A DNA stretch of 64,000 bases from NCBI RefSeq assembly GCF_016862995.1, contig NZ_BOOA01000008.1, positions 62,001 through 126,000 on the forward strand, written 5' to 3'. Each line of letters opens with the position of its first letter. Position 1 is the stretch's first letter. Source of the DNA: Acrocarpospora phusangensis. Lineage in GTDB: Bacteria; Actinomycetota; Actinomycetes; Streptosporangiales; Streptosporangiaceae. The position numbers and the translations under genes are program-made. Of the stretch, positions 29,679-31,664 are shown piece by piece. A model generated the notes under the pieces. That model was given only the letters and a program-made list of their open reading frames with translations, was not told the DNA's origin and made no database searches.

Positions 29679-30512
29679 ATGAGGGCTCGACGCCGTCATC
29701 TCGCCGCCGCGGCGCTGTTATCGGCGGTGGCCGTGGCGCTGTCCGGTTGCGCTGTGACGGGTGCTGAGCAGGCACGTCCGGCCGCGGCGGGCACCGCGGC
29801 GGTGACTGAGGCCGGTTCGGACCTTGGAGCGGTCCGATTGGTGTCGGCCTGGGAGCCGGCGCCGTTCACGGCACCGGGCAAGACGCTCAAACTGGGTGCC
29901 AAGGGGGCGGCGGTCAAGGCGCTCCAGACGCGGCTCAAGGAACTCCGGTACCTGCCGGGGAAGATCGACGGCAAGTACGGCGGCGCCACCCAGTCCGCCG
30001 TCTGGGCCTTCCAGAAGGTCCAGGGCCTCAAGCCGTCCAGCACGATCGCGGCCAGGACGTGGCGGGCGCTGGAGCAGCCGGCGCAGCCCCGGGTCCTGGT
30101 GCCGAACGGCAAGCCGGACCGGGCCGAGGTCAACCTGACCAAGCAGGTCATGGTCCTCTACCGGGGCGGGCAGATCCGCCTGATCACCCACATCTCGTCC
30201 GGCAGCGGCATCCCGTACGTCGAGTACGCGGTGTGGAACGGCAAGCGCACGAAGTTCACCGGCGACGCGCGCACGCCCACCGGGAACTACAAGACGACCT
30301 GGCGGCGCGACGGCTGGCACAAGTCCTACCTGGGCCAGCTGTACAACCCGATCTTCTTCAACGGCGGCATCGCCTTCCACGGCGCGCTGTCGGTGCCGCT
30401 CTACCCGGCCTCCCACGGCTGCGTACGGCTCCCGATGCACGTCGCCGAGATCCTCCCCGGCCAGCTGGGCACGGGCGTTCCCGTGCACGTAAGGGGCAAG
30501 TTCGCCCGCTGA
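29679..30512 (+). CDS. Lipoprotein L,D-transpeptidase (YkuD) with peptidoglycan-binding domain
   Basis: A 277-residue exported enzyme. The N-terminus has a lipoprotein signal with lipobox LSGC (Cys about 24). Residues 68-125 form a PG_binding_1 domain (GAAVKALQTRLKELRYLPG). The C-terminal YkuD domain (about 145-275) has the catalytic motif HG...SHGCVRLP with Cys and His intact. It should form 3-3 cross-links or attach proteins to peptidoglycan on the outer face of the membrane. A weak GC hairpin (30518-30543) and a strong terminator (30605-30639) follow. Confidence 0.92.
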   Translation: MRARRRHLAAAALLSAVAVALSGCAVTGAEQARPAAAGTAAVTEAGSDLGAVRLVSAWEPAPFTAPGKTLKLGAKGAAVKALQTRLKELRYLPGKIDGKYGGATQSAVWAFQKVQGLKPSSTIAARTWRALEQPAQPRVLVPNGKPDRAEVNLTKQVMVLYRGGQIRLITHISSGSGIPYVEYAVWNGKRTKFTGDARTPTGNYKTTWRRDGWHKSYLGQLYNPIFFNGGIAFHGALSVPLYPASHGCVRLPMHVAEILPGQLGTGVPVHVRGKFAR

Positions 30513-30604
30513 CCAAAGCCGGGCCAGGCCCTATCGGCCCGGCCATGTTCGGCAAGGCCCAGGCCGTATCGGATTCGATCGGGTCTGTCGGCTGGGCCGC
30601 TTGA

Positions 30605-30639
30605 ACGGTCCCGCGCCCTCCCAGGCGTGGGGCCGTTTT
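30605..30639 (+). terminator. Rho-independent terminator
   Basis: A 13-bp stem (30605-30617 with 30624-30636, two G-T wobbles), 6-nt loop, followed by TTTTCG. It ends the L,D-transpeptidase transcript and isolates the LexA-type promoter downstream. Confidence 0.8.
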
Positions 30640-30671: not shown

Positions 30672-30687
30672 TCGAACCCTTGTTCGG
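30672..30687. promoter_or_regulatory. LexA-type (SOS) box 1
   Basis: TCGAACCCTTGTTCGG matches the actinobacterial LexA palindrome TCGAAC-N4-GTTCGA in 11 of 12 fixed positions. It lies upstream of the -35 hexamer. Confidence 0.7.
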
Positions 30688-30695
30688 CGAATCGC

Positions 30696-30724
30696 TTGAC
30701 TTTGACCTTGGTCGAATCTATGTT
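30696..30724 (+). promoter_or_regulatory. Promoter between and within the SOS boxes
   Basis: TTGACT (30696-30701), 17-nt spacer, TATGTT (30719-30724). The -10 lies inside the second LexA-type box, so LexA binding would exclude RNA polymerase. A GTG begins six bases downstream. Confidence 0.7.
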
Positions 30725-30727
30725 CGA
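30712..30727. promoter_or_regulatory. LexA-type (SOS) box 2
   Basis: TCGAATCTATGTTCGA matches the LexA palindrome in 11 of 12 fixed positions and overlaps the -10. Its start is 40 bp from the start of box 1. Confidence 0.7.
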
Positions 30728-30730
30728 GGT

Positions 30731-30940
30731 GTGAGAGTGGGACTCGCGGCCTGCTCTCACTCCCAAGAGGGGCCTGCGCTCCCCGTCGTCGGCGGCGTCG
30801 AGCGGGAGCGCGGCCCCGGAACTTGGGCCGGACGGGGAGAGGGGAAGCTCCTCGTCCGGCCACGCAGGCACCGGACCGACAGCACGCGAAGCGGAAGGCG
30901 GAACCACAGGCGGAATTGTCGGTGGCGTCTGCGAGTGTGA
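30731..30940 (+). CDS. Possible leaderless small ORF under SOS-type promoter
   Basis: GTG at 30731 is exactly six bases after the -10 element and opens a 69-codon frame. The product would be basic (Arg-rich C-terminal half) with Cys at 8 and near the end, and resembles nothing that I know. GC bias of the third codon positions is only moderately supportive. It may be a short regulatory or toxic peptide, a leader, or not a gene; the downstream HEPN gene, about 50 bases further on, could be the real target of the promoter. Confidence 0.3.
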   Translation: MRVGLAACSHSQEGPALPVVGGVERERGPGTWAGRGEGKLLVRPRRHRTDSTRSGRRNHRRNCRWRLRV

Positions 30941-30988
30941 TTCCACCGGCGGAGACCGCCGGAGGCCACCAAGCCCTAGGAGGCTGGC

Positions 30989-31423
30989 ATGACCGGACCG
31001 CAGAACGGGCCCGCCGGGCCCAAAGTGTCGCGGACCGTTCTCGCACACCTGACCGACGCCCGCACCTGCCTCGCGGACGCCACCATCGCCACGTCCCCGG
31101 CCGAGCGCTACATCAACGCCCACCTCGCGGCCCTGCGCGCGGCCGCGGCGATCCTGGCCGCCCGCCCCCAGCCCATCGACGGCCGCCGCCGGCGGCTGCG
31201 CAGCGCCTGGGAGCTCCTGCCCGAGGCCCAGCCCGAACTCTCCCAGTGGGCCGCCTACTTCGCGGTCAGCGCCAAGAAGCGCGCCGCCGCCGAGGCCGGC
31301 CTGGTGCACCTGGTCAGCGCCCACGACGCCGACGAACTCATCGCCGAGGCCGAGGGCTTCGTCACCATCATCGAGTCCACCCTGGGCGTCGTCACCCAGC
31401 GCACCCTCCCCATGGCCGGTTGA
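30989..31423 (+). CDS. SAV_6107-family HEPN protein
   Basis: A 144-residue all-helical protein of the actinobacterial SAV_6107 HEPN family (RYINAHLAALRAAAAILAAR, then RSAWELLPEAQPEL and a helical C-terminus). HEPN domains are often RNases or nucleotide-binding partners; the usual RxxxxH motif is not evident, so nuclease activity is doubtful. ATG with a good AGGAGG site. It lies about 260 bp downstream of the SOS-type promoter and could be DNA-damage inducible. Confidence 0.82.
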   Translation: MTGPQNGPAGPKVSRTVLAHLTDARTCLADATIATSPAERYINAHLAALRAAAAILAARPQPIDGRRRRLRSAWELLPEAQPELSQWAAYFAVSAKKRAAAEAGLVHLVSAHDADELIAEAEGFVTIIESTLGVVTQRTLPMAG

Positions 31424-31464: not shown

Positions 31465-31664
31465 CCCGCCCGGTTCCGCTGCGCGAATCGCGCCTCCGGG
31501 ACAACCCGTCCCGTTCCGCCGTGCGAATGTTGTCTCTGGAGCAACCCGTCCGGTTCCGCTGCGTGAATGGTGTCTTCGCGGCAACCCGCCCGGTTCCGCT
31601 GTGCGAATCGCGACTGCGGGACAGCCCGCGCGGTCCCGCTGTGCGCATACCGCCTGGATAGTGT
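31465..31664. repeat. Five direct 40-bp tandem repeats
   Basis: Units start at 31465, 31505, 31545, 31585 and 31625 with an exact 40-bp period. The conserved core is CCCGYCCGGTTCCGCTGYG followed by GAAT; the rest of each unit varies. They fill the gap between the HEPN gene and the convergent arginine deiminase gene. No spacers, so not CRISPR. No frame is convincingly coding. Confidence 0.88.

Follow-up and report, generated by a model that had tools for sequence, protein, structure and literature searches.

A conserved structured RNA behind a putative LexA-controlled promoter persists with and without its HEPN_SAV_6107 neighbor in Streptosporangiaceae

LexA-controlled RNA regulators are known mainly from enterobacteria. 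IstR-2 of E. coli resembles the element described here in being a noncoding RNA apparently under LexA repression and produced upon DNA damage (cited in PMC2527527); there it belongs to the tisB toxin locus, whereas our RNA is followed by a HEPN gene and persists without it, and no sequence or structural relation between the two RNAs is shown. Mycobacterial recA has two damage promoters, one controlled by LexA and the other of the PafBC form tTGTCRgtg-N8-TAnnnT (PMC5656591). The protein family concerned, HEPN-M (SAV_6107), was surveyed by Anantharaman et al. 2013 (PMC3710099), with no conserved RNase motif and no conserved context listed. The 6C RNA and other actinobacterial RNAs in Rfam share with the present one the presence of hairpins with conserved loops.

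The locus lies in a genome of Acrocarpospora (G000), family Streptosporangiaceae (hereafter the family), within a stretch of 64,000 nucleotides (G000:C8:62001-126000), the window, in whose coordinates positions are given. Its features are as follows.

Ends at 30512: L,D-transpeptidase gene, 5′ of the locus
About 30603-30639, + strand: terminator-like hairpin, 15 pairs followed by TTTT, closing the L,D-transpeptidase unit (fold; scan hit)
30672-30687, + strand: LexA box 1, TCGAACCCTTGTTCGG, one mismatch to TCGAACN4GTTCGA
30696-30724, + strand: promoter match P1, TTGACT (30696-30701)-N17-TATGTT (30719-30724), start predicted near 30731
30712-30727, + strand: LexA box 2, TCGAATCTATGTTCGA, one mismatch to TCGAACN4GTTCGA
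30731-30760, + strand: RNA hairpin H1, 11-pair stem, loop ACUCGCGG, predicted 5′ end of the RNA (fold, covariation)
30762-30825, + strand: stem-loop H2, variable; the stem recurs in folds, and its length and sequence differ among loci
30826-30861, + strand: RNA hairpin H3, the element with the strongest conservation; 14-pair stem, loop AGGGGAAG (covariation)
30916-30938, + strand: HEPN-proximal candidate promoter P2, PafBC/RecA-NDp-like, TTGTCGGTG-N8-GAGTGT (motif match, PMC5656591)
30731-30940, + strand: 69-codon GTG frame, judged not to be a gene because it is unconserved within the genus
30978-30983, + strand: AGGAGG, ribosome-binding site for HEPN (sequence)
30989-31423, + strand: HEPN_SAV_6107-family gene, 144 aa (Pfam E 3.9e-35; HEPN fold model)

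A previous sequence-only reading had described two LexA boxes bracketing a promoter that is insulated upstream by a strong terminator, and each of these elements was recovered. In a motif scan, the two boxes, 40 bp apart and each matching 11 of 12 positions, were the only LexA sites with at most one mismatch in the window; because only 53 such sites occur in the 9.1 Mb of the genome, a pair at this distance is far from chance. The TTGACT-N17-TATGTT match between the boxes, with its -10 element inside box 2, is the sole sigma-70-type match in 2 kb (0.0 in shuffles), and folding places the terminator hairpin and its T run after the L,D-transpeptidase gene. The genome also encodes LexA itself (C85:1424). 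Two one-mismatch boxes lie upstream of lexA, and those of the HEPN locus match the operator equally well; a perfect box adjoins a dnaE2-like gene (read by eye) in the same genome.

The boxes are conserved in relatives, as the earlier reading had required. In 78 of 88 family loci the 570 nt upstream of HEPN contain a box with no more than one mismatch, as they do in 24 of 51 loci outside the family (0.06-0.1% in shuffles). With few exceptions the pair, with a second box of the TCGAA type, recurs upstream of HEPN in the first 45 family loci. Spacing is 38-41 bp in 63 of the 65 family loci examined, box 2 is near-invariant, TCGAA(T/A)(C/T)TATGTTCGA, and the P1 match is kept in the family alignment. 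As a prediction from genome sequence, DNA-damage control of the locus is well supported.

The DNA that follows P1 has the conservation pattern of a structured RNA. In the window the leader folds with z = -4.3 relative to shuffles; the first 30 nt from the expected transcription start form H1, and H3 follows about 65 nt further on. Across loci the H3 loop has the general form (A/U)GGGGAAG, being exactly AGGGGAAG in 62 hairpins and ACTCGCGG in 44, and the H1 loop lies 26-34 nt past the start of box 2 in nearly all loci. When hairpins were collected on the loop alone, unfiltered for pairing, at most one of the 12 positions was unpaired in 86 of 94 H3 stems, and at most one of the 9 in 61 of 70 H1 stems. 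Covariation was computed on gap-free hairpins (alignments A1/A2), in which 94.2% (H3) and 93.6% (H1) of positions are paired, percentages that are somewhat inflated because both alignments were filtered for pairing. The covariation score is 0.528 for H3 (0.199 shuffled) and 0.701 for H1 (0.303 shuffled), values reached by no shuffle, and changes on both sides occur in 11 of 12 and 9 of 9 pairs, respectively. Judged by these compensatory helix changes in the aligned genomes, the element is a conserved structured RNA.

The H3 covariance model (R1) has a single strong match in the Acrocarpospora genome, the one match at E <=0.1. The H1 model (R2) matches 30733-30758, and its next best match elsewhere in the genome, which no LexA box accompanies, reaches 26 rather than 37 bits; the idea that H1 or H3 belongs to a set of such hairpins in this genome was accordingly rejected. 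An Rfam search returned no match above any gathering threshold, and no family like 6C appeared among the weak matches, so that a known Rfam family was dismissed. We found no description of this RNA in the open-access literature; it appears to be previously undescribed and strongly conserved, and would constitute a new RNA family. Several further ideas about its structure and origin were discarded. A pseudoknot pairing the H1 loop with a GCGAGU further downstream is seen in the window and is unconserved. Kissing of C-rich loops with the H3 GGGG is not general, since such loops occur in only 12 of 96 HEPN-positive family RNAs and 6 of 16 HEPN-less ones. A phage origin was rejected on finding the H3 motif absent from viral contigs, where there are only two partial HEPN relatives.

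The sequence-only reading had instead assigned this DNA to protein, proposing that a GTG six bases after the -10 element opens an Arg-rich frame for a damage-induced small protein with HEPN as its partner. The 69-codon frame does exist and follows the -10 element, but even species of the genus do not share it: in five Acrocarpospora genomes it shifts, with lengths of 69, 112, 121, 121, and 44 codons, and its sequence diverges beyond the first hairpin, while the DNA beneath keeps the RNA hairpins through compensatory changes. A start 6 nt after the -10 element leaves no space for a ribosome-binding site, so that translation would have to be leaderless, and no Pfam match was found for a translation of this stretch, the frame read being a neighboring one. 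On the comparison within the genus we rejected the small protein, to which we give next to no credence.

The RNA and the HEPN gene do not always occur together. The H3 covariance model matched 107 of 121 family genomes, nearly always in single copy, and a protein search found HEPN in 94 of the same 121. Among the 27 genomes that this search classes as HEPN-less, a set that consists partly of drafts and was confirmed with the Pfam model in some cases only, 16 retain H3 and 11 lack both. Each of the 16 has a LexA box (at most one mismatch) 58-137 nt upstream of the H3 loop, and in each the RNA is flanked, as in the window, by metF/GNAT (or polyprenyl synthase) on one side and bldD-pyrR on the other; in several, another long and perfect hairpin between H3 and bldD may serve to terminate the transcript. 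The HEPN-less genomes yielded no H1 of the ACUCGCGG form and retain only H3 together with different hairpins, some of them rich in C. One genus includes a genome with both RNA and HEPN (G113) and two with the RNA only (G043 and G089), and the RNA aligns through all three. Thus, in the genomes compared, the RNA persists without HEPN, and since it is kept while HEPN varies within one genus and across the family, it appears to be under selection independently of that gene. A minority of HEPN loci (G023, G035, G057) gave no H3 match.

These distributions bear directly on whether the structured segment is simply a cis-acting 5′ leader of an SOS-induced HEPN mRNA, protecting the message or controlling its translation, and left as a relic in HEPN-less genomes. 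Its position agrees with such a role: wherever a HEPN-positive locus carries the RNA, it precedes HEPN on the same strand, many other families show box, hairpin, DUF6504, and HEPN in a row, and in some loci (L094, L163) the gap between box and gene is as short as about 100-180 nt and holds one hairpin. In the core genera no clear terminator separates the RNA from HEPN, which follows on the same strand no more than 130 nt away, and the RNA may for that reason also serve as a leader there. However, a relic would decay, yet intact H3, LexA box, and synteny are kept by the 16 HEPN-less genomes, among which the H3 model scores as well as anywhere (52.8 bits in G059). The distance from H3 to HEPN varies widely, and no conserved complement of the H1 loop was found between H1 and the HEPN start. 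We therefore consider a purely cis-acting leader rather unlikely.

The inverted repeats, which are perfect or nearly so and lie near the promoter, could alternatively act as DNA, either as binding sites of a second regulator or as cruciforms at the HEPN promoter. Against this, the stems vary with pairing kept and the loops are invariant, a pattern of RNA rather than of a protein-bound palindrome, and H3 is found some 100 nt past the start; a role as DNA seems very improbable to us. The locus is best read as encoding an SOS-controlled RNA in its own right, something beyond a leader. The fuller account, in which a LexA-repressed unit specifies a structured RNA of about 130 nt (H1-H2-H3) that has an independent function and is followed by the HEPN_SAV_6107 gene, we regard as probable. 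The safest statement is that the locus appears to encode a LexA-controlled structured RNA that outlives its HEPN neighbor.

According to the account of a LexA-repressed RNA unit, LexA dimers on both boxes would block P1, box 2 covering its -10 element, and removal of LexA on DNA damage would allow P1 to transcribe the RNA. The RNA would fold at once, with H1 as its 5′ end, and would present the invariant (A/U)GGGGAAG loop on a rigid GC stem to a partner in trans, whether a protein or an RNA target rich in C. HEPN would be made both by read-through from P1, as opposed to termination, and from the PafBC-type P2. That the RNA has a job of its own is suggested by the HEPN-less genomes that keep it under a LexA box, and it most likely acts in trans through the GGGGAAG loop.

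The HEPN partner had been called correctly. The gene, whose ATG at 30989 lies about 48 bases past the end of the 69-codon frame, belongs to Pfam HEPN_SAV_6107 (PF18726; 120.8 bits relative to a gathering cut-off of 27.2) and hence to the HEPN-M (SAV_6107) family. The predicted structure (pLDDT 85) has the HEPN proteins 2hsb, 1wol, and 3o10 as its top PDB matches, with weak Foldseek E-values at a probability of 0.98-1.00, and the sequence profile also touches 2hsb. A near-invariant RYxxAH stands in the second helix of the family, not clearly at the catalytic place of Rx4-6H. No MNT nucleotidyltransferase is found beside the gene, its neighbors being those for L,D-transpeptidase and arginine deiminase, so that this is not a HEPN-MNT pair. 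A 40-bp tandem repeat of 4.5 copies (31465-31645) lies immediately 3′ of the gene. Partial HEPN relatives are encoded on IMG/VR contigs L258 and L259.

The P2 motif, about 50 nt before HEPN in the window, clusters at -80 to -100 from the profile start in many family loci; a supposed conserved hairpin H4 near HEPN is better read as this motif. TTGTCGGTG matches tTGTCRgtg fully. Sites of the form TTGTCRGTG-N8-nAnnnT number 33 in the Acrocarpospora genome and 2 for the reversed control pattern, an enrichment which suggests that a PafBC regulon exists in Acrocarpospora. The candidate P2 would thus form with P1 a pair of LexA-type and PafBC-like promoters resembling that of mycobacterial recA; unlike at recA, an RNA lies between the two promoters, and the -10 element of P2 is GAGTGT instead of TAnnnT. 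Overall, the HEPN gene looks like part of the DNA-damage response.

The claim that no known SOS gene stands behind the boxes needs care. A search finds a HEPN_SAV_6107 family member in C. glutamicum, and this, together with what we take to be the metF neighborhood of cg2381 in that species, makes cg2381 probably the HEPN_SAV_6107 gene there, by inferred orthology. It belongs to the LexA regulon and is ciprofloxacin-induced (PMC5055667); the available part of that article reports no structured RNA at cg2381, whereas the Acrocarpospora locus has one. The main text of a LexA study of S. venezuelae (PMC9380542) does not name the HEPN gene, and we found no paper in the open-access literature that links HEPN_SAV_6107 to an SOS-controlled RNA.

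LexA boxes accompany HEPN_SAV_6107 genes in many other actinobacterial families; often such a box has no mismatch, and a PafBC-type promoter motif sometimes stands before it. Hairpins after the box have loops such as CUCGACCC there, and UGGGGAAG loops also occur. In Streptomyces-like loci both the RNA and a good LexA box are missing, and a TTGTCAGTG motif occurs instead. DUF6504 (PF20114) is found between box and HEPN in many of these families (L080, L104, L179, L095, L182, and others), an arrangement that suggests an SOS operon DUF6504-HEPN.

More tentatively, the RNA could represent an RNA arm of the actinobacterial SOS response: controlled by LexA, marked by the invariant (A/U)GGGGAAG octaloop, and acting in trans in DNA damage, with HEPN (and DUF6504) often as functional partners, possibly RNA binders, and with an octaloop hairpin between nrdR and nrdJ as a target or a shared protein site. 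If the element is what we propose, it is a new, deeply conserved RNA family, LexA-controlled, nearly always single-copy, and syntenic near bldD; it would offer a testable entry into DNA-damage handling by these antibiotic producers and assign two uncharacterized families, HEPN_SAV_6107 and DUF6504, to the damage response.

The nrdR-nrdJ hairpin, with a UGGGGAAG octaloop, is seen between nrdR and an nrdJ-type ribonucleotide reductase gene (both identified by eye) in at least nine Nocardioides-like genomes of f26 (L202, L203, L205, L207-L209, L212, L214, and L215; near position 1513 after orientation); no LexA box with at most one mismatch was found within 1.5 kb of these hairpins. L213 and four other small actinobacterial genomes of f5 carry a terminator-like hairpin with a AGGGGAAG loop and a T run, without a LexA box, perhaps by coincidence.
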